NCBI GenBank assembly: GCA_021647785.1
Contig: JAKIUC010000034.1
Location: forward strand, 1-43,650
DNA length: 43,650 bases
Origin: Melioribacteraceae bacterium
Lineage (GTDB): Bacteria; Bacteroidota; Ignavibacteria; Ignavibacteriales; Melioribacteraceae
Reading direction: 5' to 3'
Shown: piece after piece, positions 12,011 to 30,809 of the stretch
Layout: each line of letters opens with the position of its first letter
How positions within the stretch are numbered: position 1 is the first letter of the stretch
The notes under the pieces: generated by a model
Database searches by the model: none
The model's input: only the letters and a program-made list of their open reading frames with translations
What the model was told of the DNA's origin: nothing
Program-made: the position numbers and the translations under genes

Positions 12011-12063
12011 AGTTATTCTCATTGTTTAAAATAATATTGGTAGTAAATATAAGAGAAGTTGTC

Positions 12064-13161: not shown

Positions 13162-13179
13162 TTGTTGAAAGAACCAAAC

Positions 13180-15056: not shown

Positions 15057-15096
15057 TTTAAAGTTTTCAGCGATCTTGAAAAGATAACAACAAAGT

Positions 15097-15132
15097 TGTC
15101 TGTCCCAAAGGCATCACTTCGGGACAGACAAA
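15097..15132 (+). terminator. hairpin downstream of aminotransferase copy 1
   Basis: TTGTCTGTCCC and GGGACAGACAA form a perfect 11-bp stem around a 14-nt loop, 40 nt past the stop codon. There is no long U-tract, so it may be a weak terminator or an mRNA-stabilising stem. Confidence 0.5.
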
Positions 15133-15193
15133 ACCTATCCCAAAAACACTACAAATTTAACCGCTTTCATTTTGTTTGAATGTTTAATCCAAG

Positions 15194-15226
15194 TTAACAG
15201 AAAATATCCTTGACATTTTCTGTTAA
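15194..15226 (+). promoter_or_regulatory. palindromic operator overlapping the peptidase/antiporter promoter
   Basis: Perfect 12-bp arms TTAACAGAAAAT (15194-15205) and ATTTTCTGTTAA (15215-15226) are separated by 9 nt, which contain the TTG of the -33 box. A protein bound here would block the promoter. The regulator is unknown. Confidence 0.6.
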
Positions 15227-15240
15227 ATCGCTTATCTTTG
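15210..15240 (+). promoter_or_regulatory. Bacteroidota-type promoter for the M20 peptidase-nhaC operon
   Basis: TTG at 15210-15212, exactly 20 nt, then TATCTTTG at 15233-15240: a full match to TTG-N19-21-TAnnTTTG. The predicted start of transcription falls about 35-40 nt before the ATG at 15285. Confidence 0.7.
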
Positions 15241-15284
15241 GAAATAATGTACCAAAATAATCAGAACAATACAAAAGTACCAGA

Positions 15285-16436
15285 ATGATAAATAAAAAAC
15301 GACTTATAAATTTATTTATAGAACTTGTTGCCATCAATGGAAAATCGGGAGATGAAACAAAAATTGCAGAAAAAGTAATGGATAGCTTAAGAAAACTTGG
15401 GCTTAAACCTTACAAAGATAACGCTGATGAATCATTTTTTGGTAACTGCGGAAATGTGCATTGCTTAATTCCCGGAAGTTCAGAGAAGTTTCCTATACTT
15501 TTTTTTGGAGCACATTTAGATACAATTGAACCAACAGAAGGGATAAATACAACAATTAAAGATGGAATTATTCAAACAGATAAAAGTACAATACTCGGTG
15601 CAGATAATCGTGCAGGGGTTGCTGTAATTTTAGAAATAATTACCACATTGATTGAGAATAGCACTCCTCATCCTCCTATTAAACTTATTTTTACTGTTGC
15701 TGAGGAAATTGGAATGTACGGCTCTAAATATTTAAGTATTGATTCTATAAATGCTGACTTCGGTTTTGTTTTTGATAGTTCAGCAAGACCAGGTAAAGTA
15801 ATAACTACTGCTCCGTTTTCGAGAGAAATGGGAATTAAAATTATTGGTAAAGCTGCACACGCTGCTGTTCAACCAGAGAAAGGAATTAACGCATTAACTA
15901 TTGCTTCTAATGCTCTTTCAAAAATTGAAGTTGGTAGGTTAAAAAATAATGGAACACTTAACTTTGGTACTATTGAGGGTGGGAAGGCAATTAATACAGT
16001 TCCGGAAATTGTTGAGATTAAAACAGATATTAGAGCTTTCCATAAAAAACACTTGGAAAGTATTGTTTCAAACATTAAAGAAACATTTCTTTCCGAAGCA
16101 GAAAAAGGGAAAGGAAAGGTGGAATTTGATTTAATTGAGAAATACGATTCATTCTCTTTACTTGAAAGTGATGAAGTAGTTCAATTAGCATTTGGTGGAA
16201 TTGAAAACAGAGGATTAACCCCTGAAGGTATAATTTATAGTGGCGGTAGTGATGCTAATATTTACAATCAGAAAGGAGTTCCAACTGTTAATTTAGGAAT
16301 GGGGTTTCAAATGGTACATTCCGTAAATGAATATATTGCAGAGAATGATCTCGTTACAATTGCTGAAATAGGTTTTAATATTATTGATGTAGCATATCAG
16401 AAAAATATAAAAAAAATAAAAGTAAATTATGGCTGA
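15285..16436 (+). CDS. M20 family peptidase, peptidase T-like
   Basis: A 383-aa di-zinc aminopeptidase of the peptidase T/PepT-like M20 branch. Visible motifs are GAHLDT (H77, D79), LGADNRAG (bridging D107), VAEEIGMYGS (catalytic E140, ligand E141), KAAHAAVQPEKGINA (dimerisation-domain His region) and GGSDANIYN near the C-terminus. The length agrees with PepT-like proteins. It is cytoplasmic (no signal peptide) and would trim tripeptides or similar short peptides taken up from outside. The nhaC ATG lies inside its last codons (8-nt overlap), so peptide breakdown and ion or solute exchange are made together. A promoter with a palindromic operator precedes it, suggesting regulated expression, perhaps by amino-acid or peptide supply. 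Confidence 0.9.
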   Translation: MINKKRLINLFIELVAINGKSGDETKIAEKVMDSLRKLGLKPYKDNADESFFGNCGNVHCLIPGSSEKFPILFFGAHLDTIEPTEGINTTIKDGIIQTDKSTILGADNRAGVAVILEIITTLIENSTPHPPIKLIFTVAEEIGMYGSKYLSIDSINADFGFVFDSSARPGKVITTAPFSREMGIKIIGKAAHAAVQPEKGINALTIASNALSKIEVGRLKNNGTLNFGTIEGGKAINTVPEIVEIKTDIRAFHKKHLESIVSNIKETFLSEAEKGKGKVEFDLIEKYDSFSLLESDEVVQLAFGGIENRGLTPEGIIYSGGSDANIYNQKGVPTVNLGMGFQMVHSVNEYIAENDLVTIAEIGFNIIDVAYQKNIKKIKVNYG

Positions 16437-17838
16437 AAAAGTTAAAAGAAAACCAACGCTCACCGAGGCATTAATTCCATTTATTGTTATGGCATTTCTG
16501 TTAGGAGTTGGATATGGAGTGTTTAAGCTAAGGATAGAAGTGCTTCTTCTAACGGCAGCATCGGTAGCAGGATTATTAGGCTTGCGGTTGGGTTTTAATT
16601 ACAAAGAGATGCAAACCGGAATAATGGAATCAATCCATAAAGGAATGCCAGCAATGTCTATTGTAATTATTGTTGGGATGCTTATTGGTACTTGGATTGC
16701 TGCCGGTACAATTCCTATGATAATATACTACGGATTAGAAATTATTTCGCCTCAATATTTTCTAATTACTGCTTCAATTGTTTGTAGTGTAATTTCTCTT
16801 GTAACAGGTTCTTCTTATGGTACAGTTGGTACAATAGGAATTGCATTTATGGGAATTGCACACGGAATGGGTATTCCTTTGGCACAAGCTGCAGGGGCAA
16901 TTGTTGCAGGTGCCTATTTTGGAGATAAAATAAGTCCATTTTCAGATACAACTAACTTAGCCCCTATTGCAGCAGGAAGTAATTTGTTCGACCACATTAG
17001 GCATCTACTTTGGACTACAACTCCTGCTTGGATGATTGGGCTAATTATTTACTATTTTGTAGGCTTAGGATTTGAAGCAGACCCAAGCGGAGAGCAAAAA
17101 ATAGATACCATACTTCTTACCTTAGAAAACAATTATAATTTTAGCATTTTTTTATTACTCCCACTTCTTACAATTTTATATTTAACTGTAAGAAAAAAAC
17201 CAGCAATTCCGGGTATGTTACTTTCATCAGTAATAGCAATAGTTCTGGCTTATATTTTCCAAAATGTGAGTATTCAAACTTCTGTTCATGCAGCAGTATT
17301 CGGGTTTAGTGCCGATACAGGGTTGGAGGTTGTTGATAAATTACTTACAAGAGGTGGGATGGTTCACATGATGGAAGTTACTCTAATTGCATTTTGTGCC
17401 TTTGCTTTTGGAGGAGTTGTACAGGTTACATTTGTGTTAGATAAACTATTAAGTGAAATCACAAAGTACACTACAAGTGTAGGTAAACTAATAGCATCAA
17501 CTGTTGCAACAAGTATTACTACTGCTGTAATTACAGGAAGTTCATTCCTTGCAATACTAATTCCCGGAGAATTGTTTGCACCAATTTATAAGGAGAAAAA
17601 ATTAGCTGCAAAAAACTTATCGAGAACCACTGAAGATTCTGGAACAGTTGTGGTTCCATTAATACCTTGGAGTATTGCTGGTGTTTATATGGCAGGTACG
17701 CTCGGAGTTCCAACTCTTGAATATGCTCCTTGGGCATTTATGTGCTACCTCGGATTTATAATCGCATTAATTTATGGTTTTGCAGGAATTAAAATTGCCC
17801 CTAAAATAAGAGAAGATGAAACCCAGATTGGTAGTTAA
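16429..17838 (+). CDS. nhaC: NhaC-family Na+/H+ antiporter
   Basis: A 469-aa polytopic inner-membrane protein of the NhaC family, with about 11-12 hydrophobic segments. Family signatures include VTGSSYGTVGTIGIAF, GAYFGDKISPFSDTTNLAP and TEDSGTVVVPLIPWSIAG, where the conserved Asp/Ser/Thr polar residues probably bind the ion. NhaC proteins exchange Na+ for H+; some relatives exchange organic acids such as malate and lactate. The start overlaps the upstream peptidase by 8 nt (ATGGCTGA), showing translational coupling. Being paired with a peptidase could mean it helps export a product or balances ions during amino-acid use, but that is inference. Length is normal and intact. Confidence 0.9.
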   Translation: MAEKVKRKPTLTEALIPFIVMAFLLGVGYGVFKLRIEVLLLTAASVAGLLGLRLGFNYKEMQTGIMESIHKGMPAMSIVIIVGMLIGTWIAAGTIPMIIYYGLEIISPQYFLITASIVCSVISLVTGSSYGTVGTIGIAFMGIAHGMGIPLAQAAGAIVAGAYFGDKISPFSDTTNLAPIAAGSNLFDHIRHLLWTTTPAWMIGLIIYYFVGLGFEADPSGEQKIDTILLTLENNYNFSIFLLLPLLTILYLTVRKKPAIPGMLLSSVIAIVLAYIFQNVSIQTSVHAAVFGFSADTGLEVVDKLLTRGGMVHMMEVTLIAFCAFAFGGVVQVTFVLDKLLSEITKYTTSVGKLIASTVATSITTAVITGSSFLAILIPGELFAPIYKEKKLAAKNLSRTTEDSGTVVVPLIPWSIAGVYMAGTLGVPTLEYAPWAFMCYLGFIIALIYGFAGIKIAPKIREDETQIGS

Positions 17839-17873: not shown

Positions 17874-20117
17874 ATGAAATCGAAATTTACATTATTTAGT
17901 TTTATGTTTTTATTCTCGTTTGTTTCTTTCTTTGCACAAGGAGATTTGCGAATAACAGAGATTATGTTTGATGTTCCAGCAGACTCACTTGGTGATGCAA
18001 ATGGTGATGGAGTTAGAGGTTCACGCTCAGATGAGTTTGTTGAACTCTATAATGCAGGTACGTTACAAATTGATCTAACAGCTTATCAAATTGTTGAAAG
18101 AGAAGGTGTACCTGTCTTTACATTTCCTGTTGGTGCAACAATTGATCCTGGTCAATTTGTAGTTGTATTCGGTTCTGTGGGTCCAAACGGATTTGGCAGC
18201 AATATTCCAGAAGGAACCGGACTATATACGGTTAACACAACAACAGATGGTGCAAATGTAGGATTTAACAATGGTGCTGGCAAATCAAATTTTTCAAATT
18301 CAAGCGATAGAGTTATGATAGTGGATGCTTTATTAGCTGATACAGTGGCTGAAGTTTACTGGAGGGGCCCAACCGGACAGCCAAACGAACCAATGACTGC
18401 TGATGCAATATTCTTAGCCGCACCAAATACAATTAGTGGCGATTCAATTTATGGTGCTATTAGACAATCAGTTACACATGATATTAATAGTGAAAAGTGG
18501 GATATGCACACTTTTGTAACTGGAAACTTAGATTATCTATTTTCTCCTGGTACAAATGCTAAAGAAAGTATTGCTCCACCACCACCAACAATTACAATTA
18601 CAGAAATTATGTTTGATGTACCGTTAGATTCATTAGGAGATGCAAATGGTGATGGCATTCGAGGTTCTAAATCTGATGAATTTGTTGAGATATACAATTT
18701 TGGACTCAAAGATGTCGATTTAACAGGGTTCCAAATTTTAGACAGTGAAGGAATTGATGTTTATACTTTTCCTGATGGTGCAATTTTAGAACCTAATCAA
18801 TTTGGTGTAGTATTTGGTGCTGTTGGCTCTGCTGGTTACAGTAACATTCCGCCAGCAACAAAACTTTTTGAAGTTCAACAATCAGATGACAATGTTGGTT
18901 TTAATAATGGTTCAGGTAAATCAAATTTTTCCAATTCAAAAGATGCTGTTTTATTAGTTAATTCAGCAGTAGCAGATACAGTAGTTGAAGTTTATTGGGG
19001 TTCTACTGCTCCGCAAACAGCAGATGCTATCTATTTAGGACCCCCAAATACAATTAGTGGTGATTCAATTTCTGGTAAAATCCGTAAATCTGTTACTCAT
19101 AAATTAGATAGTGATTTGTGGGATACACATACGGTAGTTAGTGGTGATACATTAAGTTTGTTTTCGCCAGGAGCAAACGCACCTAAAAAACCAGTTGTTA
19201 TAGCTAGTGATATTATTATTACAGAAATTATGTTTGATGTACCGCCTGATTCGCTTGGTGATGCAAATGGTGATGGTGTAAGAGGTTCACGTTCTGATGA
19301 GTTTATAGAACTCTATAATAAAAGTAGTAGTGTAATTGACCTATCTGGATATCAATTGTTAGAAAGCAACTCAATTGCTGTCTATACTTTCCCTTCGGGT
19401 GCAACAATTAATCCTGGTCAATTTGTTGTAGTATTTGGTGCAGTAGGTCCAAATGGCTACGGTACAACAATTCCTTCAGAAACAGGAATATTCGAGGTTC
19501 AAGTTACAACTGATGATGCAAATGTTGGATTCAATAATAGTGCTGGTAAATCAAATCTATCTCAATCGGGCGATTGTGTTGCTCTAATTAATCCTGCAAT
19601 AAATGATACTTTAATTGAAGTTTATTGGGGTTCAGCTAATCAAATATCTTCAAAAGCTATTTACTTAAATTACCCGAATACACTTACTGGTAATGATTTA
19701 AGTGGTTCCATTGATCAATCGGTTACAAGAAAATTAGATAATGACAAATGGGATATTCACACAGTTGTTTCAGAAAGTGATATTACACTTTTTTCACCAG
19801 GTACTGATGCAGAAGTAATTACCGGATTAGAAAATGTATCGAATAAAATTCCTAATAAATTTACATTATTGCAAAACTATCCTAATCCTTTTAATCCATC
19901 AACCGTAATTGAATTTAGTATTCCGAAAGAATCAAGTGTATCACTAATTATTTATGATATACTTGGTAGAGAAATTGCAACATTAGTTAATAAGAAACTA
20001 AAAGCTGGTTATTACAATTACACTTGGAATGCGACAAATTTATCTTCAGGAATTTATTTATATAAATTTAGTGCAAATAATAACATTATTACAAAAAAGA
20101 TGTTGTTAGTAAAATAA
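17874..20117 (+). CDS. secreted protein with three lamin-tail domains and T9SS sorting domain
   Basis: A 747-aa secreted protein. The signal peptide (to about residue 22, FFAQG) is followed by three tandem homologous units of roughly 200 residues starting near 27, 242 and 447. Each opens with ITEIMFDVP.DSLGDANGDG and SDEFVE.YN, the lamin-tail domain (LTD) pattern, and each carries an Asp-rich loop (GDANGDGVRGSRSDE) that could bind calcium. The last ~88 residues form a T9SS type A sorting domain (QNYPNPFNPSTVIEF, IYDILGREIATL, SGIYLYKF). The protein is therefore expected on the cell surface or in the medium. LTDs often accompany nucleases or bind to surfaces, but no enzyme domain is present here. 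ATG is preceded by TAGGAG. The TonB receptor gene follows after a hairpin. Confidence 0.85.
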   Translation: MKSKFTLFSFMFLFSFVSFFAQGDLRITEIMFDVPADSLGDANGDGVRGSRSDEFVELYNAGTLQIDLTAYQIVEREGVPVFTFPVGATIDPGQFVVVFGSVGPNGFGSNIPEGTGLYTVNTTTDGANVGFNNGAGKSNFSNSSDRVMIVDALLADTVAEVYWRGPTGQPNEPMTADAIFLAAPNTISGDSIYGAIRQSVTHDINSEKWDMHTFVTGNLDYLFSPGTNAKESIAPPPPTITITEIMFDVPLDSLGDANGDGIRGSKSDEFVEIYNFGLKDVDLTGFQILDSEGIDVYTFPDGAILEPNQFGVVFGAVGSAGYSNIPPATKLFEVQQSDDNVGFNNGSGKSNFSNSKDAVLLVNSAVADTVVEVYWGSTAPQTADAIYLGPPNTISGDSISGKIRKSVTHKLDSDLWDTHTVVSGDTLSLFSPGANAPKKPVVIASDIIITEIMFDVPPDSLGDANGDGVRGSRSDEFIELYNKSSSVIDLSGYQLLESNSIAVYTFPSGATINPGQFVVVFGAVGPNGYGTTIPSETGIFEVQVTTDDANVGFNNSAGKSNLSQSGDCVALINPAINDTLIEVYWGSANQISSKAIYLNYPNTLTGNDLSGSIDQSVTRKLDNDKWDIHTVVSESDITLFSPGTDAEVITGLENVSNKIPNKFTLLQNYPNPFNPSTVIEFSIPKESSVSLIIYDILGREIATLVNKKLKAGYYNYTWNATNLSSGIYLYKFSANNNIITKKMLLVK

Positions 20118-20130
20118 TATATTATAAACT

Positions 20131-20170
20131 GTAATAAATCCTTGAGATTTATATCTCAAGGATTTATTAC
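20131..20170 (+). terminator. 18-bp perfect hairpin between LTD gene and TonB receptor gene
   Basis: GTAATAAATCCTTGAGAT pairs perfectly with its complement at 20153-20170 around TTAT. It ends 20 nt before the next ATG, leaving no room for a separate promoter, so it may be an attenuating or processing element rather than a full stop. Confidence 0.6.
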
Positions 20171-20190
20171 TTGAGAAATTTGGAGTTTAA

Positions 20191-22878
20191 ATGAAAAGAT
20201 TTAAATTCATTTTATTTTTAATTACAATTCTGTTACCACTAAACTTATATGCTGGAACAACTGGTAAAATTGCTGGTTTTGTAATTGATAGTTCTACTGG
20301 GGAAACACTTCCCTTTGCAAACATTATTATAATTGGTACCAATATTGGTGCAGCATCCGATGTAAATGGGCATTTTGTAATGTTAAATATTGCACCTGGT
20401 AAGTATTCTGTAAAAGTATCTATGGTTGGATATTCTTCCCAAACAATTGAAGATGTTATAATTAGAGCAGATCTTACAACTAATCTAAATTTTAACTTAA
20501 GTGATAATTCATTTTTACTTGGAGATATTGTTGTAAAAGCAGAAGTCACTTTAGTTATAAAGGATGAAACTTCACGTACAGCAATTGTAGATTCTAAAGC
20601 ATTTACGGAGCTTCCAATAGGATCGTTCCAAGATATGGTTGGTTTGCAAGCGGGTTGGACTAAAGGTGCAGATGGCAAAATTCATGCTCGTGGTGGTAGA
20701 GCTGGTGAAGTTGTATTTTTGATTGATGGAGTTCCTGATAGAAATGCACTTACTGGAAACTACACAGGGCAACTTGATAAGTATGCTATTCAAGAAATGC
20801 AAACTATTACCGGTGGTTTTAATGCTGAATACGGTCAAGCATTATCTGGTGTTGTAAACATAGTTACAAAAGATGGTGGAGATTCTTATCATGGTAGACT
20901 TGAGTATCAATCTGATATGCTTAATAGCTCTCCTTATCATAGTACTAACGCATTTGCCTACGACCAATATGGTATAGATGAAAATGGTGACTTTATTCAA
21001 AGAACTAATAGCGAAGGGACAGAATTAATAAATAACTATCCTTCTGCTTATAAAGAACAAAAAATAGATGGTACACCCTCACTTGTACCTGATATTAATA
21101 TGTTAGGTCAAATATCTCTTGTTTTAGGAGGACCTACACCCCTTATTCCTAGATTAAAATTCTTTATTACTGGGCGTTATAGTAACTCGCTTAGTCCACT
21201 TCCTTGGGGTTATGACAAATCGAGAGAGTTTAACTTAAAACTATCGTATAACATTTCAAATAGTTTTAAACTTTCATATTATTTACACAGCGATTATAGA
21301 ATGTACAAACCATATTCTCATTCTTGGAAATACTTACCAGATGGTTTTGAAGATCGTAAAAGTAATTCTTGGAAAGATAAAATAAGTGTTAACCATATTA
21401 TTAATCCAAAGTTATTTTACAATGCTTCTGTTTCGTATAACAGAGATTATTATAATAGATATACACCTGGTAAGTTTGCAACATTTACACATGATGGACA
21501 ACTAATTTCTTCAAATTATCGAAGAAAAAATAATAATACTCCTCCGTTTTGGACTAATGCTGATAACGGAATTTATATTGAAAACCAAGTTAATAATTTA
21601 ATGTTCAAATTTGATGTAACATCACAATTAGGCGAATTCAATTTAGTGAAAACAGGTATTCAAATTCAGAGTTTTAATATAGACCGTCTTAGATTTCAAG
21701 AACCATATCCAGGTGGTTTTCACGGATATGAAAATTATGAGAAGACTCCTCTCGAAGTTTCGGTTTATATTCAAGATAAGTTAGAATTTAATTCATTTAT
21801 TTTGAATATTGGTATCCGTTATGATTATACAAATTTGGATGATACTAAATGGATATCGGAAAAAAAACCAGCAGGATACATAGATAGTAATGGAGTTTGG
21901 ACACCATCGGGCGAAATTGAAGCCGAACCGCAACACCAAATAAGCCCGCGTTTAGGTATCTCTTTTCCAATTACAGATAAAACAGTTTTTTATAGTTCAT
22001 ACGGACATTTTTTCCAAATGCCAAATTATGTAGATTTATACAATTTGCGAGACCCAACATTAGATAGAGCAATAATTGGGAACCCTGGAGTAGAACCACA
22101 GAAAACGGTTGCCTATGAGTTTGGTGTAAAACAACAGTTAGGCGATTTTTACACAATCAATCTTGGTGTTTACTATAAGGATATTACAAATCTACTTGGA
22201 AGTATGTACTATGCAGTTTTCCCATATGAGTACACCATTTTTAATAATTCTGATTATGGGCAAGTAAAAGGATTTGATATCAATATCACAAAAGTATCAT
22301 CCAATTATTGGTATGCTAATCTTAACTACTCCTTTTCTATCGCTAAGGGAAATGAATCTGACCCTCGTGAAGGATATAACGATTATAGAAGAGCAAATGC
22401 AATTCTTAGACCAAAGCAAGTTTTCCCTTTAGATTTTGATAGAAGACATGTATTTAATGCTACTCTTGGTTTGAACTTCCCAGAAAATTTTGGGTTCCCA
22501 ATAGGTAATTTCTATTTGTTTGAAAACACTGATATTACTTTTATTTACAGAGCTCAAACTGGATTACCTTATACACCAAACCCTACCGAAGAGTCTGAAG
22601 GTTTAATTGTTCCTAAAAATTCAGCAACAATGCCATCTATGAATCAACTTGATTTTAGATATACTCGATTTTTTAACTTAAGTTCTACAACAAGATTTAT
22701 ACTATTTTTATCAGTACAAAATTTATTTGATACAATTAATGCACTTAATGTTTGGAGCACTACAGGTGATCCGTGGGATGCGGGTCCTACATCAAGTAGA
22801 ACTCTTGATAGGCAAATGAATCCAACTAATGTTGGACCAAGAAGAATAGTTCAAGTTGGTGTTCGATTAGATTTCTAA
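20191..22878 (+). CDS. TonB-dependent receptor with N-terminal CarboxypepD-regulatory-like domain
   Basis: An 895-aa outer-membrane transporter. The signal peptide (to LNLYA, about 22) is followed by a carboxypeptidase-regulatory-like beta-sandwich (24-107: GKIAGFVIDSSTGETLPFANIII, APGKYSVKVSMVGY). Next comes a plug domain (about 115-235, with GKIHARGGRAGEVVFLIDGVPD and MQTITGGFNAEYGQALSGVVNIVTK), then a large 22-strand barrel ending VQVGVRLDF with a C-terminal Phe. This is the SusC-like/CirA-like type that imports glycans, peptides or metal complexes with energy from TonB. No SusD lipoprotein is adjacent; instead the partners are a large secreted protein and a PorV-like protein, with only 24 nt to the next gene. 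The substrate is unknown. Confidence 0.9.
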   Translation: MKRFKFILFLITILLPLNLYAGTTGKIAGFVIDSSTGETLPFANIIIIGTNIGAASDVNGHFVMLNIAPGKYSVKVSMVGYSSQTIEDVIIRADLTTNLNFNLSDNSFLLGDIVVKAEVTLVIKDETSRTAIVDSKAFTELPIGSFQDMVGLQAGWTKGADGKIHARGGRAGEVVFLIDGVPDRNALTGNYTGQLDKYAIQEMQTITGGFNAEYGQALSGVVNIVTKDGGDSYHGRLEYQSDMLNSSPYHSTNAFAYDQYGIDENGDFIQRTNSEGTELINNYPSAYKEQKIDGTPSLVPDINMLGQISLVLGGPTPLIPRLKFFITGRYSNSLSPLPWGYDKSREFNLKLSYNISNSFKLSYYLHSDYRMYKPYSHSWKYLPDGFEDRKSNSWKDKISVNHIINPKLFYNASVSYNRDYYNRYTPGKFATFTHDGQLISSNYRRKNNNTPPFWTNADNGIYIENQVNNLMFKFDVTSQLGEFNLVKTGIQIQSFNIDRLRFQEPYPGGFHGYENYEKTPLEVSVYIQDKLEFNSFILNIGIRYDYTNLDDTKWISEKKPAGYIDSNGVWTPSGEIEAEPQHQISPRLGISFPITDKTVFYSSYGHFFQMPNYVDLYNLRDPTLDRAIIGNPGVEPQKTVAYEFGVKQQLGDFYTINLGVYYKDITNLLGSMYYAVFPYEYTIFNNSDYGQVKGFDINITKVSSNYWYANLNYSFSIAKGNESDPREGYNDYRRANAILRPKQVFPLDFDRRHVFNATLGLNFPENFGFPIGNFYLFENTDITFIYRAQTGLPYTPNPTEESEGLIVPKNSATMPSMNQLDFRYTRFFNLSSTTRFILFLSVQNLFDTINALNVWSTTGDPWDAGPTSSRTLDRQMNPTNVGPRRIVQVGVRLDF

Positions 22879-22902
22879 AATTAATTGTTAGGATACAGAA
22901 AC

Positions 22903-25845
22903 ATGAAAAAAATATTATTATTTGCTATGCTCTCCCTTCTATTTGTTCAATTAGCCTTTGCACAGCAAGAAATTGATGGTGATGAAGATTACAACGGAAG
23001 ATTAAGAAAGCCAACAACATCCGTTGATGATGCGTTTGGAATATTAGATAAAGGAGAATTAATAAATTGTATTGGTAATCAAGGTGTTATTTCCGACACA
23101 TATTATCAAAATGTAATTTATAACTTTAGATGGCCTAAAAGTCTTGGGCTTGCTAATATAAGAGGTACTAATGCAACTGATGATGTTTCCATTTTGTTTG
23201 CCCATAAAGGAAATGTACTTGATGCTTATACACGTTATAGAAATGAAGACTTTCAAGCTCCGGTTGGTGCTCGTGGGCATTATCATGCAGATGACCAGCC
23301 TGATAATTTATTAGCCCCTGATGGTGCTCCTCGTCTTGCACATAGCGATATTCCAGTAACATGGCCAAAAGGATTTATGGATACATTAAATATTTGGTAC
23401 GATGCTCCTACCGAAAACTATAAATCACTTTCGGAAAATGATAAAATTCTTGTTGATTCTAAAGGTGCATTCTATGACGAAGAAAATGATGTTTGGAGGT
23501 TTTGGCCTGGTAAATTTAGAATTGAAGTTGACCCAGAATCACCAGATTTTGGAAAACAAGTTCCGGGTGAGTTTGCTGCCGATAGAGAAGTTTTTGCAAT
23601 TTATACTGATCATAACGCACAGTTGCCATCAAAATCTATTGGTATTTCTGTTAAAATGCAGGCTTTATCATATGGACGTAGATTTGCTGAAGATATCCAT
23701 TTTTACGATTTTTTAATTACCAATACAAGTGGTGAAATTCTTGATAGTTGTTGGTTTGGTTACTATGTTGATTTCCAATTTGGAGATTCGGGTGATGAAA
23801 CTTGGGGTACCTTTAATTCAGGTTTAAATCCGAATGGGAACGATAATGTGTTTTATCAATTCGATTATAACGGACCTAACCCTGGAAACTTAGAAGATGG
23901 TGTTATTGGGATGGTTGTATTTGCTGCTCCTAAAGGAATTGGAGTAACCGATTCTCATTTTTTTGAAGACTTATCCGGAAGCATTACACCAGGCGTAGAT
24001 AAAGAAATGTGGCCTGTAATAATAAGCAATCCGGAAGATCCAAATATAAATGCCGCTAATTATTTCCACGGCTCAAATCAAAAATTTGATGACTATAGTT
24101 TAACTGAAGATGGGCAAAACCCGGGACCCAAAAATTGGACAAATTATGTTACAAGTGGTCCCTTTACAATGGCAACTGGCGAAACTGTTAGAGCCACAAT
24201 AGCATTTATTGCAGAAAAGAACTTACTTCGTTTCAAAAAAAATGTAGCCTCTGCACAGGAATTATTTGTTAACGAATTTAATGGACCAGCAGCTCCACCA
24301 TCTCCAAACGTTTATGCTGAAGAAGGTGATGCAAGGGTTACAATTTATTGGGATGATATTTCAGAACATTTTATTGACCATGTTTCAAAGAAAAAAGATT
24401 TTGAAGGCTACAAGGTTTACAGGAGCCAAGACCAAGGTTCTACTTGGGGAGATATTATTAAAGATTCCCAAGGAAACTTAGTAGGGTACGTTCCTATTGC
24501 TCAATTTGATATTGACAATTTAGTGCAGGGTGTTGATCCATTTAATCATTTTAATTTTCTTGGTTCCAATACTGGAATATTTCATTACTTTGTTGATTCA
24601 ACTGCATTGAATGGAGTTCATTATAGCTATACTGTTACTGCTTACGATTCTGGGTCAGTCTCAAAAGAATTAGAATCTTTAGAATCCTCTAAAGGTACTA
24701 CAGCAGCAGATGCAAATCTTGTGGATGCTACTCCAAGATCAAATGCCATAGGATACACTGCTGGTACTGATAGTTTATTCCACGCAGCGGGAATTGGGAA
24801 TAGTGATATCAGCATTTTTATTGGAGATGCTTCTGCTCTTACTGGTGATTCGTATCTACTAACATTTAATAAAAATCCTGCTGATAGTTTTATCTTCTCA
24901 AATTTATTGACGGGTGAACTACTTACTAAAGTTGCCATAGGAACTGATGAAATGCTCTTGATAAATGGAATAAAAATTAAAGTGGATGGAGATAGTAAAA
25001 CTGGTGAACTAAAAAATATTGTGGACGAATTAGGAAATAGTGTCGATAATTCCAATAATCCAAATGAGATAAATAATTGGTTTGTTAATTTAAACTCTGT
25101 TAACGCATTAGGAGATACTATTACTCAATCAAGTAAATTTGAAATTAGATTTACATATGATGGTTCCTATGCTTCTGGATTAACAGGAAATAATAAACCG
25201 CTAATTAATAAATTCCAAGTTCCTTACGAGGTTTGGAATGTTGCAAGAGATGATAATAATTATCAGATAAATTCAATTCTGTTAGATGATAATAAAAATG
25301 GCGAATTAGATTTAAATGAAGAAATTAGAATTCTAAACGTACCTTACAAAGAGAATGATGATACTGTTGGAGTATTTTCTATTTTTAAATGGTATTATAA
25401 CATTTCTATTGATGCAGTTAATAATGGAACATTGCCCGATGTTGGACAACTTTTCACCCTACTTCCCTACAGCCAATTGAATAAAAGTGATTCGTTTTAT
25501 GTTTATATAAATAAACCTTTTGTTAATTCAGATAGAGAAATTATAAAAAGTGGGCTTGAAGAAGTGCGTGTTGTTCCAAACCCTTATGTAGTAAATGCAA
25601 GATGGGAACAGTTGGAAAATAATAGAAGATTACGCTTTATGTATCTACCTGAAGAATGTACAATTTCTATCTATACAATTGTGGGTGAATTGGTTAAGAA
25701 AATTGAACATAATAATGGTGTTGGCGATGAGGATTGGAATTTGACCAATGAATCTGGTGTAGAAGTAGCATTTGGAGTTTATCTATATGTAATTGAAACT
25801 CCAAGTGGTGAAAAGAAAATTGGTAAATTTGCCATTATTAAGTAG
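22903..25845 (+). CDS. large secreted protein with T9SS-like C-terminal domain
   Basis: A 980-aa protein, started at the ATG at 22903 (MKKILLFAMLSLLFVQLAFAQQ, a clean signal peptide) with TTAGGA upstream. Most of the first 460 residues show no family I recognise, although acidic patches and many aromatic residues suggest beta structure (IDGDEDYNGRLRKP, YGRRFAEDIHFYDFLITN, TWGTFNSGLNPNG). At about 470-600 a fibronectin-III-like module is visible (ARVTIYWDD, DFEGYKVYRSQD, VHYSYTVTAYD). The C-terminus (VRVVPNPYVVNARWE, CTISIYTIVGELVKK, GVYLYVIETPSGEKKIGKFAII) is a variant T9SS sorting domain. It lies between the TonB receptor and PorV-like genes and may be their surface-exposed binding partner. 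Function unknown. Confidence 0.75.
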   Translation: MKKILLFAMLSLLFVQLAFAQQEIDGDEDYNGRLRKPTTSVDDAFGILDKGELINCIGNQGVISDTYYQNVIYNFRWPKSLGLANIRGTNATDDVSILFAHKGNVLDAYTRYRNEDFQAPVGARGHYHADDQPDNLLAPDGAPRLAHSDIPVTWPKGFMDTLNIWYDAPTENYKSLSENDKILVDSKGAFYDEENDVWRFWPGKFRIEVDPESPDFGKQVPGEFAADREVFAIYTDHNAQLPSKSIGISVKMQALSYGRRFAEDIHFYDFLITNTSGEILDSCWFGYYVDFQFGDSGDETWGTFNSGLNPNGNDNVFYQFDYNGPNPGNLEDGVIGMVVFAAPKGIGVTDSHFFEDLSGSITPGVDKEMWPVIISNPEDPNINAANYFHGSNQKFDDYSLTEDGQNPGPKNWTNYVTSGPFTMATGETVRATIAFIAEKNLLRFKKNVASAQELFVNEFNGPAAPPSPNVYAEEGDARVTIYWDDISEHFIDHVSKKKDFEGYKVYRSQDQGSTWGDIIKDSQGNLVGYVPIAQFDIDNLVQGVDPFNHFNFLGSNTGIFHYFVDSTALNGVHYSYTVTAYDSGSVSKELESLESSKGTTAADANLVDATPRSNAIGYTAGTDSLFHAAGIGNSDISIFIGDASALTGDSYLLTFNKNPADSFIFSNLLTGELLTKVAIGTDEMLLINGIKIKVDGDSKTGELKNIVDELGNSVDNSNNPNEINNWFVNLNSVNALGDTITQSSKFEIRFTYDGSYASGLTGNNKPLINKFQVPYEVWNVARDDNNYQINSILLDDNKNGELDLNEEIRILNVPYKENDDTVGVFSIFKWYYNISIDAVNNGTLPDVGQLFTLLPYSQLNKSDSFYVYINKPFVNSDREIIKSGLEEVRVVPNPYVVNARWEQLENNRRLRFMYLPEECTISIYTIVGELVKKIEHNNGVGDEDWNLTNESGVEVAFGVYLYVIETPSGEKKIGKFAIIK

Positions 25846-25859
25846 GAGGAGAAATTATA

Positions 25860-26882
25860 ATGTTAAGAAAATTATATAGCACTATTTTAATAATTATTAC
25901 GTTTGCATCTCTTGTTTTGGGGCAAGAGTTCAGCAAAACCGGAACTTCAGCAGCTCAATTTCTTAAAATCCCAGTTGGTGCTCGTGCAGCTTCACTTGGT
26001 AACTCATTTGCTGCTATAGTTAATGATGCAACTTCTCTCTATTGGAACCCTTCAGGAATTGCTTCCTTAGGAAAAATAGATTTTAATTTTACTCATACTC
26101 AATGGATTGCCGGATTAAACCATAATTTCTTTGGTGCAGTTATTCCTATAGATGATATGAGTGCAGCTGGTTTTGGTGTTATTTCACTCGACTATGGCTC
26201 AACTGAAATAACAACAATAGATAAGCCTAAAGGGACTGGAGCTTTTTATGAAGCAAGTGATTTATCGTTTTGGTTTTCGTACGCTCGCTTTTTGTTAGAA
26301 GATGTTAGTGTTGGAATAAGTGTGAAATATATTTCTCAAAAGATATGGAATGTTAGTGCAAGTTCTATCGCAATAGATCTTGGAGCCTTACTCTACACAG
26401 GATTTTACGATTTAAAGTTAGGTTTAAGTTTTCAAAACTTTGGACTTGATATGCAATTGGATGGAAGTGATTTAATTAGACCATATGACCCTGATATTCA
26501 AAACTCTTCAAATTTGTTGGTAGATTCCAAACTAACAACGGGGTCTAATAGTTTACCTGTATATTTTAGTGGTTCTCTTGCAATCTCTCTCATAGGTGAT
26601 AATGCCCCAATATCTTCGTTAAATTCAAGTTTAATTATTACTGCAAACGGAATACATTTAAGCGACAATCCTGAGCATTACAGTTTAGGGATGGAGTACG
26701 GATTTATGCGTACCCTTTACTTTAGAGGGGGATACATTTTTAATTCTGATGAAGCTAACTATAGTTTTGGTGTTGGTTTGAACATGAATGCTGGTGTAAC
26801 TTCATTTATATTCGATTATGCTTATTCCGACTATGGAGTTTTCAATCCAGTTCATATTTTTTCGGTTGGTTTAAATCTTTAA
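25860..26882 (+). CDS. PorV/PorQ-family outer-membrane protein
   Basis: A 340-aa outer-membrane beta-barrel. The signal peptide ends near LVLGQ; the mature start has the family signature TSAAQFLKIPVGARAASLGNSFAAIVNDATSLYWNPSG. The remainder is alternating beta strands ending in FNPVHIFSVGLNL. PorV (LptO) shuttles substrates of the type IX system to the attachment complex, and PorQ is its relative. In Ignavibacteria there are many paralogues placed beside individual secreted proteins, so this copy may serve the 980-aa protein encoded upstream. A strong ribosome-binding site (TAGGAGGAG) overlaps the stop codon of that gene. It is last in the receptor/secreted protein/PorV operon. Confidence 0.85.
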   Translation: MLRKLYSTILIIITFASLVLGQEFSKTGTSAAQFLKIPVGARAASLGNSFAAIVNDATSLYWNPSGIASLGKIDFNFTHTQWIAGLNHNFFGAVIPIDDMSAAGFGVISLDYGSTEITTIDKPKGTGAFYEASDLSFWFSYARFLLEDVSVGISVKYISQKIWNVSASSIAIDLGALLYTGFYDLKLGLSFQNFGLDMQLDGSDLIRPYDPDIQNSSNLLVDSKLTTGSNSLPVYFSGSLAISLIGDNAPISSLNSSLIITANGIHLSDNPEHYSLGMEYGFMRTLYFRGGYIFNSDEANYSFGVGLNMNAGVTSFIFDYAYSDYGVFNPVHIFSVGLNL

Positions 26883-26965
26883 CTATTATAGTTTTTCCAA
26901 TATTTAATAATTATCTGAATAATTAAAACTGTTTGCTAAAAATTATTCTTGGAGTCTATGTTTTA

Positions 26966-28420
26966 ATGAGAAAGAAAGTTTTACCTTTTATCTTTTCACT
27001 AATAACTTTTACATTTTTTGTAAACTCTTTTGCTGTAGAAATTAGTAAAATCCCTTATCTTCAACTTGCGGGTTTGCATACGCTTACTGCCAACTCAGAT
27101 AACCCTAATAGTATTAAATGGCAAATTGACCAGATTACTATTAATGAAACAGATGGGGAATATCAATATTCAGCTAACATTCAGCAAGCAACTGGTGATT
27201 CAGCTAAATTCCTTTTTATTAAGTATGCTAGTAAGTATAGCTACTACAAAATATTTGCTGATGATGGAGTTTCAATAGATTCTATGGAGGTTCAGGTCTT
27301 TAACAAAGGTGTTCGACAAAAGTATTTTTATTCCAACCTATATGAGCCTAATAAACCTATTATTGTTTATCTAATTCTTCCTCCAACATTGTCGAAGAAC
27401 TCAAATTTTGTAATGGTGATGCATGGTACGGATAGGAATGCAGATGATTATGCAGATTCATGGAAAGACTTTGTAAATAAGAGTGATTATATAATTGCTG
27501 CCCCAGAATTTTCAGATGCTGATTGGCCGTATTCAAGAAGTTATAATCTTGGCAATATGTTTACAAGAAGCAATGGAAATGGTAACCTTAATCCAACATA
27601 TAAATGGACATTCTCTGTTGTGAGTAATATTCATACCGAGTTGTTAAACGGACTTGAACTCGTTGAAAAAAAATATGACATTTGGGGACACTCAGCTGGG
27701 TCGCAGTTTGTTCATAGAATGATGGAATTTCTACCAGACAAAAATATTAGATACTATATTTCTGCTAACGCTGGCTGGTACACAATTCCTGATATTAATA
27801 TCGAATATCCATACGGGTTTAAGCATAACATACTAACATTCACTTCCTCCGATTTAGAGAGGATGAATAGAACCGAAATGATTGTAATGCGAGGAACTAC
27901 TGATACAGTAAGAGATAGTAATTTGCGTACAACTCTAGAAGCTGATGCACAAGGTTTAAACCGATATGAAAGAGCCGGTACGTTTTTTAATGTTGGAAAT
28001 GAATTAAGCGATGCAGAAAAATGGCAATTACTTGATGTTCCTAATATTGGTCATGATTTTAGAAAAATGGCAATTTCTGCACAAAATTTTCTTATTAATA
28101 ATCCTATAACTAATGTTGCCGAGTTATTTACCTCAGCGCCTTCTACTATTAAGTTATATCAGAACTATCCAAATCCTTTTAATCCAAGCACTACAATCAA
28201 ATATTCAATTCCATTAAACGTCAATCGTCAATCGTCAATCGTAAAGTTGGTGGTATATGATATTCTCGGCCGTGAAGTTACAACGCTTGTACGTGAGGAA
28301 CAGGCACCAGGCAATTATGAAGTAAAATTTGATGCAACAAGATTCATATCAGGAATTTATTATTACAGAATTTCAGTAGGTAATTTTGCAAAAACAATGA
28401 AAATGATTTTAGTCAAATAA
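26966..28420 (+). CDS. secreted alpha/beta hydrolase with T9SS sorting domain
   Basis: A 484-aa protein from the ATG at 26966 (GGAG 11 nt upstream; an in-frame TTG further up is less likely). After a signal peptide (ending NSFAV) comes a ~100-residue N-terminal beta-rich part, then an alpha/beta-hydrolase domain. Visible there are the oxyanion-hole region FVMVMHGTDRN, nucleophile S243 in WGHSAGSQF, a likely Asp in RGTTDTVRD, and H363 in NIGHDF. The family resembles poly(3-hydroxybutyrate) depolymerase/esterase-type hydrolases. The last 88 residues are a T9SS type A sorting domain (LYQNYPNPFNPSTTIKYSIP). A CGTCAAT heptamer repeat lies within that domain. It shares NLGNMF, SANAGWYT and TDTVR with the next gene, its sister. 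Substrate unknown; a secreted esterase or lipase-like role is likely. Confidence 0.85.
   Translation: MRKKVLPFIFSLITFTFFVNSFAVEISKIPYLQLAGLHTLTANSDNPNSIKWQIDQITINETDGEYQYSANIQQATGDSAKFLFIKYASKYSYYKIFADDGVSIDSMEVQVFNKGVRQKYFYSNLYEPNKPIIVYLILPPTLSKNSNFVMVMHGTDRNADDYADSWKDFVNKSDYIIAAPEFSDADWPYSRSYNLGNMFTRSNGNGNLNPTYKWTFSVVSNIHTELLNGLELVEKKYDIWGHSAGSQFVHRMMEFLPDKNIRYYISANAGWYTIPDINIEYPYGFKHNILTFTSSDLERMNRTEMIVMRGTTDTVRDSNLRTTLEADAQGLNRYERAGTFFNVGNELSDAEKWQLLDVPNIGHDFRKMAISAQNFLINNPITNVAELFTSAPSTIKLYQNYPNPFNPSTTIKYSIPLNVNRQSSIVKLVVYDILGREVTTLVREEQAPGNYEVKFDATRFISGIYYYRISVGNFAKTMKMILVK
28219..28242 (+). repeat. CGTCAAT heptanucleotide repeat (3.4 copies) inside the sorting domain
   Basis: CGTCAAT is repeated three times plus CGT. 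Three units equal 21 nt and keep the frame, adding seven residues inside the linker of the C-terminal domain. Loss or gain of one unit would shift the frame and remove the sorting signal. Confidence 0.9.
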
Positions 28421-28433: not shown

Positions 28434-29321
28434 ATGCATAAACTATTCGTTATACTACTTTCCTTTCTCTATATAATAGGCTGTTCAAATAGTAATGAAG
28501 TTATTAAAGAAGGTAAAGATTCTTTAATTTTCAAAAACATTCAAAGTAAAAGCAGTCCTGAAATAAAAGTTTGGACTTACAAACCAACAAAGTATTTTGA
28601 TAACTCTAAAATACTCTTTGTTATGCACGGGAACAAAAGAAATGGAGATGTTTACAGAGATCAATGGATGGAACTTGCAGAGAAAAATAGTGTACTATTA
28701 ATTGTTCCAGAATTCTCACAGAAATATTTCCCAGAGGATGATAATTACAATATGGGAAATATGTTTATAATGGATTCAACAGAAAATTTGTTGAAAAAAA
28801 ATCCAAAGAATGAATGGTCATATTCTATAATTGAACCTCTCTTCGATTTTGTAAAAAAAATAACTGGTAATATGTCAGAAAGATATTCTATGTTTGGACA
28901 TTCAGCAGGCTCTCAGTTTGTTCACAGGTTTCTGTTTTTTATTCCAAATGCCCGCATTGATAAAGCAGTAAGTGCAAATGCAGGATGGTACACACTTCCA
29001 GATACATCAGCAATTTTTCCTTATGGCTTTAAAAAAACAGAAGCTACAGCTGAATCTATTAAAAACGTTTTTGCTAAGCAGGTTACAATTCTTCTTGGAA
29101 CATCCGATACAGTAAGAATAGGTAAATCGTTAAGAAGAACACGAGAGGCTATGGCACAAGGTAGTAATAGGTTTGAAAGAGGAAAAAGTTTTTTCCATTT
29201 CGCCAAAGAACTTGCAAAAAAAAACAATTTAAAATTTTCGTGGAGTTTAGAATTTGTTGAGAACGTTGGACACAAAAATAAAAAAATGGCTCCGCCTGCA
29301 GCCAAAATATTATTTAATTAA
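28434..29321 (+). CDS. alpha/beta hydrolase lipoprotein, sister of upstream gene
   Basis: A 295-aa protein with a lipoprotein signal (SFLYIIGCSNS, Cys about 17), so it is held in the envelope rather than released. The hydrolase core copies the preceding gene: LFVMHGNKRNG, PEFSQ, YNMGNMF, FGHSAGSQFVHR (nucleophile S157), SANAGWYTLPD, LLGTSDTVR, GSNRFERG and ENVGHKNKKMA (H280). It lacks the N-terminal beta module and the T9SS domain. The gene starts 13 nt after its sister and 9 nt before the M14 peptidase, so the three form one operon. The pair probably arose by tandem duplication followed by a split in location: one secreted, one cell-bound. Substrate unknown. Confidence 0.85.
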   Translation: MHKLFVILLSFLYIIGCSNSNEVIKEGKDSLIFKNIQSKSSPEIKVWTYKPTKYFDNSKILFVMHGNKRNGDVYRDQWMELAEKNSVLLIVPEFSQKYFPEDDNYNMGNMFIMDSTENLLKKNPKNEWSYSIIEPLFDFVKKITGNMSERYSMFGHSAGSQFVHRFLFFIPNARIDKAVSANAGWYTLPDTSAIFPYGFKKTEATAESIKNVFAKQVTILLGTSDTVRIGKSLRRTREAMAQGSNRFERGKSFFHFAKELAKKNNLKFSWSLEFVENVGHKNKKMAPPAAKILFN

Positions 29322-29330: not shown

Positions 29331-30809
29331 TTGAAAAAAATTATTTTATTAACGCTTCTAGTGTTTTCTACTAAAGCTAATTCTCAGCAGTTTTTATACA
29401 AAAGTGAAATCTTGGAGACCACAAGCTATTTATCAATGATGGATTTCTTGTATGAAATTACTAAAGATTCAGAAATTATGAAGTTGGATTATCTTGGTGT
29501 TAGTTACTTAGGAAGAAAAATACCTTACGTTACAATTAACAAAAAAACAGATAGCGTTAAAGTTAAGTTTATGATCTTTGCACAGCAGCACGGAAACGAG
29601 CCATCTGGCAAGGAAGCTCTTCTAGTTCTATTTCAGGAAATATCATCTGGTTTGCACAGTAAGTGGTTCAATAAAATTGAGTTGATTATTGTTCCGATGG
29701 TAAATCCGGACGGTGCAGAACTTGGCAGCCGACTTACAGCTAATGGAGTTGATTTAAATCGTTCTCATGTAAATCTTCGTAACGCAGAAGTTTTAGGTTT
29801 ACAAAATCTCTTTTATGAAAATATGCCGGAAGTAACACTTGATATCCACGAGACTAATTACTATCGAAAAGAGTGGATAGATTGGGGATATATAAAAACA
29901 TCTCGTCAAAATATGGGAATAGTTACAAACCCTAATATAGCAGAGTCAATTTTTGAATTATCAAACAAAAAGGCATTTCCGTTTGTTAAAAAATATGTAG
30001 AGAACGCAGGTTTTTCATTTAGCAATTATTATTTGGGAAATTTATATAAAGGAGAAAAAAATAGATTTAGTAACCTTGGTATTTATGATGGGAGGCAAAG
30101 TTTTGGAATTTTCAATACACTCTCTTTTATTATTGAAGGTAAAAATGGAAGAAGTCTTAATGATAGCCTAACTATTAGGCGGAATGGTCAGCTAACTAAT
30201 ATTAAAGGTTTAATTGAATTTGTATATAAAAATTGTACAGAAATACAGGGAACAATTGATTCAGCACGAGAGGATATCATTAATTCAAAAGAAAGTGATG
30301 AGATAGTTATCCGCTCAAAATATGTTGAAACTGATAGTACAATTAATCTGGTAATGCACAACGTGAATAAAAAGGAAGATACTTTAATGACGTTTCCATT
30401 TGGTGGAATAGTTAAAGCAACTTTAACTATTAATAAACCAAAAGGATATTTAATTCCAAACAACGACACTTTATTAGTAGCGTTGTTAAAGAAACATCAT
30501 ATTAAATTTGAACCGTATCGAGTAAAAGAAAACGAGAATATTTTCAAATATAAAATTGCTGCTGATTCTGTTCAAGAATTGGAAAAAGATAATTTTAATA
30601 TAGAAAAAATTAAAGTAAGTAATTTAGAGCCGTTACAATTTTATTTTGTACCAATAAATCAGATAGCATCAAATTTTATTACACTTATATTTGAACCAAA
30701 ATCTAAGTCAGGAGTTAATTCAAAATATGGTGTTCTTAGTGATAGAAAAATATCTTATTATATAGATGGCAATAATTTTTTTAATATTTTGAGAGTTGAA
30801 ACAGAGTAA
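29331..30809 (+). CDS. M14 family zinc carboxypeptidase
   Basis: A 492-aa secreted metallocarboxypeptidase using a TTG start supported by AAGGAG. Signal peptide: MKKIILLTLLVFSTKANSQQ. The catalytic domain (about 45-290) has zinc ligands H87 and E90 in QQHGNEPSGKE, the third ligand H173 in LDIHETNYY, substrate-binding NPDGAE and DLNRSH, and the general base E269 in FIIEGKNG, so it should be active. The C-terminal 190 residues (about 300-492) form a beta-rich extension without clear family. No T9SS domain is present, so it is probably periplasmic. It is third in the hydrolase operon, and together the three could degrade a peptide- or ester-containing polymer; this is inference. Confidence 0.88.
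   Translation: MKKIILLTLLVFSTKANSQQFLYKSEILETTSYLSMMDFLYEITKDSEIMKLDYLGVSYLGRKIPYVTINKKTDSVKVKFMIFAQQHGNEPSGKEALLVLFQEISSGLHSKWFNKIELIIVPMVNPDGAELGSRLTANGVDLNRSHVNLRNAEVLGLQNLFYENMPEVTLDIHETNYYRKEWIDWGYIKTSRQNMGIVTNPNIAESIFELSNKKAFPFVKKYVENAGFSFSNYYLGNLYKGEKNRFSNLGIYDGRQSFGIFNTLSFIIEGKNGRSLNDSLTIRRNGQLTNIKGLIEFVYKNCTEIQGTIDSAREDIINSKESDEIVIRSKYVETDSTINLVMHNVNKKEDTLMTFPFGGIVKATLTINKPKGYLIPNNDTLLVALLKKHHIKFEPYRVKENENIFKYKIAADSVQELEKDNFNIEKIKVSNLEPLQFYFVPINQIASNFITLIFEPKSKSGVNSKYGVLSDRKISYYIDGNNFFNILRVETE

Follow-up and report, generated by a model that had tools for sequence, protein, structure and literature searches.

What does a TonB-dependent receptor (TBDR) do when it is encoded directly beside a large secreted protein and a PorV-like barrel? 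The question is raised by a stretch of 43,650 nucleotides (the window) from a Melioribacteraceae bacterium of the order Ignavibacteriales, which is positions 1 to 43,650 of JAKIUC010000034.1 in assembly GCA_021647785.1. It is contig C82 of a 4.25 Mb genome in 99 contigs; below, C-numbers denote contigs of this genome and L-numbers denote loci. Four consecutive + strand genes, whose listed open reading frames (ORFs) are 73, 6 and 14 bases apart, encode a type IX secretion system (T9SS) cargo with three lamin-tail domains (LTD), a TBDR, a 980-residue protein that we call LARGE, and a PorV-family barrel. An initial annotation had read the block as a T9SS-assembled uptake machine in which the 980-residue protein takes the role of SusD. 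On balance, we lean towards a related answer: after export by the T9SS, LARGE would capture substrate at the surface as the partner of the TBDR, and its own PorV-like barrel would hold it there, the whole forming a nutrient-uptake cassette. At the level of sequence, the order [type-A cargo]-TBDR-LARGE-PorV is conserved, processing and import genes specific to each copy adjoin it, and SprA is present in every LARGE-bearing genome tested.

The first gene (17874-20117, + strand) fills the upstream slot of the cassette and encodes a 747-residue cargo, matched by Pfam LTD over three stretches (161.4 bits) and, at its type-A C-terminal domain (CTD), by Por_Secre_tail (40.2 bits, Pfam) and TIGR04183 (42.5 bits). 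The TBDR (20191-22878, + strand, 895 residues) has an N-terminal CarboxypepD-reg domain (CarbopepD_reg_2 at residues 27-115, 67.8 bits), a weakly matched Plug and a TonB_dep_Rec β-barrel (91.4 bits, all Pfam). Its modelled barrel resembles those of FhuA (Z 21.6), BtuB (Z 21.4) and the SusC-type BT1763 (5t4y, Z 20.2), with no class singled out. LARGE was listed as an ORF of 986 residues from a TTG start (22885-25845), and the ATG at 22903 gives the 980-residue secreted surface protein used here (22903-25845, + strand), which has no Pfam or NCBIfam match above cut-off. Its signal peptide ends in AFA/Q, without a lipobox, and the mature chain was taken from 22963. The fourth gene (25860-26882, + strand) encodes the private PorV/PorQ-family outer-membrane barrel of 340 residues. 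It passes the PorV_fam subfamily model (NF033709, 175 bits, cut-off 90) and is under the equivalog cut-offs for PorV (61.5 bits, cut-off 250), PorQ (94.1, cut-off 220) and PorV2 (74.6, cut-off 325), as is the PorV of the cassette on C24; phmmer matched it to Flavobacterium johnsoniae PorV (6h3i_F) with an E-value of 1.3e-6. Coordinates and profile matches agree that the block is real as first annotated.

A gene order unique to this genome had been named as an outcome that would refute the initial annotation. Instead, the order recurs 13 times in this genome alone and in most LARGE loci elsewhere. Profile searches of the genome returned 31 matching places for LARGE, 28 for PorV_fam (19 over cut-off) and 29 for the TBDR barrel (27 over cut-off), where one protein can yield several places. 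Gene calling in 20 fetched regions gave 13 complete TBDR-LARGE-PorV triples, window included (C82, C85, C90, C75, C24, C2, C86, C54, C5, C8, C61, C97 and C47), and 16 LARGE ORFs besides that of the window; C8 has an extra TBDR-LARGE pair, and C16 and C74 carry partial or rearranged versions. LARGE falls into two size classes in this genome, of 955-1211 and 693-712 residues. The short class (about 700 residues) is found in L104, L105, L106 and L107 (C8, C61, C97 and C16), and on C8 two TBDR-LARGE pairs stand with one PorV. All 58 genomes of the order, this one included, contain a LARGE match (weakest E-value 1.2e-5), with at least 10 matching places in 43 of them (up to 14 candidates were scored per genome, and one protein can give several).

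Two sets of loci were collected from other genomes. The first came from a scan of one conserved peptide over GTDB contigs, which gave at least 583 matches, 578 of them confirmed, and from which the best 80 loci were kept. Among its 81 LARGE ORFs of at least 600 residues, 69 are flanked by a TBDR and a PorV, 7 run into the end of the locus and 5 have other neighbours; the order is thus seen in 69 of the 74 LARGE genes with both neighbours visible, with median spacings of 13 and 14 bases. The second consisted of 120 regions hand-picked from the best profile matches, where 107 of 118 LARGE ORFs of at least 800 residues lie between TBDR and PorV (10 of these triples repeat first-set loci). Labels came from profiles built on the cassettes of our genome, and similarity to LARGE was the ranking criterion in both sets, which leaves distant relatives under-sampled. 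The recurring order is far beyond chance. Record titles of loci with the full order include Ignavibacteria, Calditrichota, Marinimicrobia, KSB1, Stahlbacteria/WOR-3, Hydrothermota and Zixibacteria, and in a Cloacimonetes record (L128) a short TBDR ORF comes after LARGE.

The slot upstream of the TBDR is less constant in content. From 183 triples, 153 non-redundant cassettes were retained, and a type-A-CTD protein precedes the TBDR in 102 of the 137 that have a same-strand upstream gene; the other 16 either run off the locus (6) or have an opposite-strand upstream gene (10). The background in the same loci is 223 type-A CTDs among 1130 other ORFs of at least 200 residues, a count that includes most of those 102. 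Upstream cargoes of other cassettes carry BNR, fibronectin-III (FN3), carbohydrate-binding-module (CBM)-like or unnamed domains. We rejected the LTD as a common feature of the cassette, as the three repeats of the window match no protein in the other loci fetched from this genome, and relatives of the 747-residue cargo in L116 and L118 have one LTD each. The LTD domain is particular to the lineage of the window, and the slot is filled by a type-A-CTD protein of varying content.

The genome encodes the T9SS components SprA (827 bits), PorU (963 bits), PorQ and a canonical-type PorV (239.5 bits, cut-off 250), and SprA was over cut-off in all 18 other LARGE-bearing genomes reached via the loci. 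In a sample of 118 genomes of the phylum, the 86 with a LARGE-profile match at E ≤ 1e-3 all fall within the 91 that have SprA, as do all 48 genomes with a strong LARGE match (E ≤ 1e-100). By a simple motif test on the 153 cassettes, the LARGE N-terminus has a hydrophobic segment in 152 and a lipobox-like sequence in 1, which indicates that LARGE is not a lipoprotein.

The absence of SusD, noted in the initial annotation, holds for the two models PF07980 and PF12771, which have no match in this genome at E ≤ 0.1; other SusD-like models were not searched. No Pfam SusD match was found on LARGE, either for the window copy (E ≤ 1) or for 10 copies from this genome (E ≤ 0.01). Mutual exclusion of LARGE and SusD was considered and rejected. 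Within the order, PF07980 occurs in 13 of 58 genomes; within the phylum sample, it occurs in 27 of the 48 with a strong LARGE match and in 34 of the 43 other SprA-bearing genomes.

An AlphaFold2 model of mature LARGE (76 sequences, pLDDT 88.6, pTM 0.79) is mainly β, comprising a supersandwich, an FN3-like domain and the CTD. The β-supersandwich (mature residues about 17-447; 23011-24303, + strand) aligns with dextran dextrinase (9ju0, VIA Z 19.2, 252 residues, rmsd 3.1), glucodextranase (1ug9, Z 18.4, 234 residues) and, at Z of about 17, glycoside hydrolase (GH) family 94 phosphorylases and GH116. The FN3-like domain (mature about 445-565; 24295-24657, + strand) is assigned, in part by inference, from the strand pattern of the model and a weak profile match to Fn3-like 3mpc (E 0.23). 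The SusD fold is helical, and no SusD-type structure is among the fold matches listed for LARGE, which excludes nothing. The top Foldseek row is PorZ, with an E-value of 4.8e-7 but a TM of 0.11. Ten LARGE proteins of this genome, scanned against Pfam and NCBIfam at E ≤ 0.01, gave CTD-type and stray weak matches only. Both LARGE and the PorVs of the cassettes form large families to which the libraries searched assign no functional name.

The CTD of LARGE (mature 868-960; 25564-25845, + strand) had been described as a variant sorting domain, and this proved real. It scores 15.5 bits on TIGR04183 (cut-off 23), against 42.5 bits for the LTD protein, and is under cut-off for CHU_C (15.9 bits) and Por_Secre_tail (15.5 bits); one of eight LARGE proteins scanned singly reaches 23.5 bits on the type-A CTD model (cut-off 23). 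Using profiles trained on other members, with cargo CTDs gathered by a profile of seven cargo CTDs from this genome, the LARGE profile was preferred by 77 of 77 held-out LARGE CTDs and by 0 of 123 held-out cargo CTDs. PorU and the PorZ-like-CTD protein of this genome fall between the two classes, nearer to cargo (PorU, 48 bits on the cargo profile versus 36 on the LARGE profile). Judged by these profiles, the LARGE CTD stands apart as a separate class, unlike ordinary cargo CTDs. A closer likeness to the CTDs of PorU and PorZ was tried and rejected: each model matched 4 of 10 members, yet one of three ordinary cargoes matches both, PorU more strongly.

We compared the distance matrices of the three proteins over the 153 triples. 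Rank correlations were 0.82 for TBDR-LARGE, 0.63 for LARGE-PorV and 0.75 for TBDR-PorV, with a maximum of 0.18 in 200 permutations; for the 13 copies of this genome they were 0.75, 0.76 and 0.81, with 0 of 1000 permutations as high in each case. Such correlated distances are a sign of joint descent, not of contact. By region of LARGE, agreement with the TBDR was highest for the supersandwich (0.79, partial 0.65), followed by 0.75, 0.65 and 0.50 for the next regions and 0.65 for the CTD. In a tree of the PorVs, several copies of this genome are scattered beside cassettes of other genomes (the window with L226 and L120, L096 with L300, L097 with L126, L130 and others), while C8 and C97 group together; bootstrap values are not settled and long branches were flagged. 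Given this scatter, these copies look like old lineages.

The genes adjoining the cassettes point to a role in uptake. We clustered the same-strand neighbours of the 153 cassettes (415 downstream and 186 upstream genes) and named the main clusters from one to three Pfam-scanned members. Downstream of the cassettes are ABC solute-binding proteins (28 of 153) and ABC permeases (25 and 23), glycosidases and related enzymes (GH16 with a CTD in 13, GH3 in 12, GH130 in 11, GH2 in 8, GH94 in 7, glucoamylase in 7) and peptidases (M28 in 7, M16 in 6). CTD proteins follow in 22, with a CBM20-like stretch in one of two scanned, and LacI regulators lie upstream in 15. This make-up is that of polymer-use loci, and a role of the cassette in uptake is well supported.

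We propose that LARGE would be exported by the T9SS through its special CTD and, being unlipidated, would stay on the surface, where the private PorV-like barrel would hold it in the way that PorV holds PorU and PorQ holds PorZ. In Porphyromonas gingivalis, PorU and PorZ retain their CTDs and are held at the surface by these barrels (PMC5562754, PMC8545088). Within the translocon, the CTD of the cargo rests on loops of PorV (PMC10994853). For type B proteins the holding barrel is a cognate one of the PorP-like kind, such as SprF for SprB and PorP for PG1035, the barrels being proposed as anchors (PMC9143113). Together with the private PorV beside each LARGE, these precedents suggest a dedicated carrier that may remain as an anchor, and the barrel probably holds LARGE on the surface. 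With LARGE barrel-held and genes for a TBDR, enzymes and importers arranged like an operon, the simplest interpretation is that LARGE captures substrate and passes it to the TBDR. The supersandwich would sit next to the mouth of the TBDR and capture oligomers, sugars in many copies and probably peptides in that of the window, and LARGE would hand them to the TBDR for TonB-driven import; the variable upstream cargo may help to bind or cut the polymer at the surface. The cassette would thereby work like SusCD or RagAB from unrelated parts, with a T9SS-exported, barrel-held β protein replacing the lipoprotein lid. The initial idea of a T9SS-assembled uptake machine thus stands as a conserved, T9SS-tied uptake cassette without SusD, but its 980-residue protein is predicted to be mainly β, unlike the helical SusD, and is not a lipoprotein.

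Several results weigh against this proposal. With SprA in 91 of the 118 genomes from the phylum, its co-occurrence with LARGE is a weak test, and 27 of the 48 strong-LARGE genomes have SusD besides the cassette, so that strict replacement does not apply. The supersandwich fold by itself shows no function. The distances of the LARGE CTD agree with those of PorV at 0.48 (partial -0.03), below its 0.65 with the TBDR; the CTD tracks PorV no more than the TBDR, and coevolution therefore gives no support to a specific CTD-PorV pairing. Interprotein mutual information was weak, with no pair above z 6 in the 153 cassettes (effective number about 70). Its regional pattern is a hint only: the top 200 TBDR pairs are enriched at LARGE residues 141-300 (49 versus 27.7 expected) and 451-600 (64 versus 36.7) and depleted at 731-986 (18 versus 52), and 4 of the top ten PorV pairs lie in the LARGE CTD, with no CTD excess in the top 200 (21 versus 19.9). 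The initial annotation had suggested modelling the receptor with the 980-residue protein. We modelled the plug-less TBDR (232-895) and LARGE 1-481, which lacks the C-terminal half, as one chain from 54 rows, 20 of them paired, window included; the domains folded well (pLDDT 83.9), but their relative placement is not confident (pTM 0.58). Finally, LARGE-like genes with other neighbours exist, 5 of 74 in the first set and 11 of 118 in the second. In two of these 11 PorV precedes LARGE; in the other nine a partner or both are missing, or the neighbours lie on the opposite strand. In L185, L310 and L311, LARGE-like genes (about 1079-1085 residues) are flanked by proteins of about 860 and of 812-833 residues that replace the TBDR and PorV.

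These points bear first on how long the barrel stays with LARGE. The private PorV may be a T9SS carrier only, which pulls LARGE from SprA, after which PorU trims LARGE for lipopolysaccharide tethering or release and no lasting barrel-held complex forms. PorV is indeed known as the substrate carrier of the translocon, with the CTD on its loops (PMC10994853), and as a shuttle (PMC5562754), and PorU, canonical-type PorV and PorQ are all encoded here; the absent tracking between PorV and the CTD does not tell a carrier from an anchor. We nevertheless consider a carrier-only role somewhat unlikely. Some type-A cargo genes, such as that on C43, have no adjoining PorV-family gene, and ordinary cargo therefore seems to need no private PorV, whereas the LARGE CTDs form a separate class, as expected for a signal that is treated differently.

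The second issue is whether LARGE works at the receptor itself. It could instead be a surface binder of the SusE/SusF or surface glycan-binding protein (SGBP) kind, concentrating substrate near the TBDR without being a stoichiometric lid, while being anchored by the PorV-like barrel at some other place in the membrane. The multi-domain β architecture of LARGE would suit such a binder, as would the upstream cargo slot, which shows that a cassette has several surface proteins, and the fusion model gave no confident receptor contact. SGBPs, however, are the variable part of Sus systems, whereas LARGE is the constant part of the cassette, nearly always directly between TBDR and PorV, and the upstream cargo is the variable one; the best distance agreement is also that of the TBDR with the LARGE supersandwich. 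We therefore judge a detached binder to be unlikely.

In another reading, the TBDR would act in signalling of the FecA type or in secretion, by TonB-driven release of LARGE, and the uptake-like neighbours would be only its regulon. We regard this as very improbable: export or sensing is conceivable in principle for a TBDR next to a secreted protein and no result favours either role, but the N-terminal domain is CarboxypepD-reg, with no STN signalling domain at E ≤ 1 (Pfam), and inner-membrane importers and GH94/GH130-type phosphorylases lie on the same strand in many cassettes. It is equally improbable that LARGE is an enzyme related to glycoside hydrolases, phosphorylases or lyases; GH94, GH15 and GH116 enzymes share the supersandwich fold of its first domain, but they have their catalysis in a separate (α/α)6 barrel, of which the LARGE model shows none after the supersandwich (helices are few and short), and sequence homology to three GH94 rows from the same loci is undetectable (hhalign probability 1.1).

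Returning to the capture partner, its closest functional parallels are SusCD and RagAB. The cassette shares with them a CarboxypepD-reg TBDR with a large surface partner as the next gene, and many paralogous copies beside glycosidases, importers or peptidases. It differs in a partner with a T9SS-type CTD that is not a lipoprotein, is mainly β and has no SusD match, and in a PorV-family barrel as a third fixed member. As two defining features, a SusD-family partner and a lipoprotein partner, are lacking, we place the cassette outside SusCD. BtuB-BtuG, a B12 receptor with a surface lipoprotein (PMC10404256), likewise pairs a TBDR with a non-SusD surface partner. Its partner is a lipoprotein, it serves a single substrate, and it is not known to have a T9SS signal or a PorV. 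PorU-PorV and PorZ-PorQ resemble the cassette, on gene evidence, in combining a CTD-bearing secreted protein with a PorV/PorQ-family barrel, but are housekeeping parts of the T9SS attachment complex without a TBDR, whereas the cassette has many copies, each with a receptor. SprB-SprF and PG1035-PorP are also secreted surface proteins with cognate barrels; theirs are type B CTDs with the PorP family, in contrast to a type-A-like variant CTD with the PorV family and a TBDR here.

No title or abstract opening among the best-ranked open-licence literature describes the cassette, with subscription papers and preprints outside that scope, and it apparently is an undescribed feeding module. What is new here is the cassette; it is built as a TBDR with a surface partner, a kind already known. 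According to a paddy-soil study, susCD was 'scarcely detected' among the carbohydrate gene clusters of Ignavibacteriales and lacking from Ca. Kapabacteria, although two Ignavibacteriales metagenome-assembled genomes had about 55 such clusters (PMC10576277). For Melioribacter roseus, one sus operon and TonB transporters are named (PMC3534657), and for Caldithrix abyssi vitamin-related TBDRs (PMC5317091); metagenome-assembled genomes labelled with these two names have the cassette (L172, L191, L129 and L193). The scarcity of susCD in Ignavibacteriales leaves a route of oligomer import to be explained; a direct candidate is the cassette, which occurs in many copies in bacteria with few or no SusD partners. 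It also provides a genomic marker for uptake loci where SusCD-based searches find little, and a handle on their substrates. We propose that the T9SS builds uptake receptors, besides secreting enzymes. A broader claim is possible, although we would not count on it: a three-part utilisome of TBDR, T9SS-exported β-supersandwich lid and private PorV-family barrel, the barrel carrying the lid through SprA and then serving as its permanent anchor, may have evolved apart from SusCD and be a main importer of polymers and peptides in several SusD-poor FCB-group phyla, making the T9SS an assembly route for nutrient receptors.

The likely substrate of the window copy was examined through its neighbours. 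Upstream are a PepT-like M20 peptidase (15285-16436, + strand; TIGR01883, 296 bits), with homologues beside the cassettes of L116, L118 and L120, and an NhaC-type Na+/H+ antiporter (16429-17838, + strand; TIGR00931, 517 bits), with homologues beside L116 and L120. Downstream follow an α/β-hydrolase-like T9SS cargo with a type-A CTD (26933-28420, + strand; TIGR04183, 36.8 bits, and a weak PHB-depolymerase-type match; homologues in L116 and L118), a second hydrolase-like protein in which no CTD was found (28434-29321, + strand; NF050058, 24.3 bits, under cut-off; homologue in L120) and an M14 zinc-carboxypeptidase-like protein (29331-30809, + strand; Peptidase_M14, 56 bits; homologue in L116). 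The L116 relative has an adjoining MFS/POT-type transporter (MFS_1 117 bits, PTR2 55 bits). Judging from these neighbours, peptide uptake is the likeliest role of the window copy. The description of the window as not a classical glycan-uptake locus therefore suits this copy, but its sister cassettes do resemble glycan loci.

Directly after the peptidase genes, at 30937-32028, is an alanine-racemase-fold protein with a D-serine-dehydratase-like C-terminus, which may fit amino-acid use. A second peptide-like cassette lineage comprises L126, L136 and relatives, and C90 (L097) of this genome; elsewhere M16- and M28/M1-type peptidases follow, and on C90 a PD40/DPPIV_N-like protein. A protein of about 515 residues lies downstream of PorV in 27 of the 153 cassettes (for example L099:10793-12340 and L100:10501-12069), often just before the ABC importer; two of three members scanned have a weak rotamase/SurA-type match, and it is possibly a private chaperone for assembly of the barrel or LARGE.

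Three further loci of this genome combine related parts. C9 (L110:1761-5347 and 11946-17051) holds a canonical porU-porV pair and, a few kb away, the PorZ-like-CTD protein beside two more PorV-family genes. C52 (L115:71-6891) encodes a protein of about 1914 residues whose repeats resemble the N-terminal domain of the TBDR and whose CTD is odd; a PorV-family gene comes next, and there is no TBDR. On C43 (L114:4554-13898), two TBDRs flank a 983-residue protein with an ordinary type-A CTD and there is no PorV, which is a different receptor arrangement.

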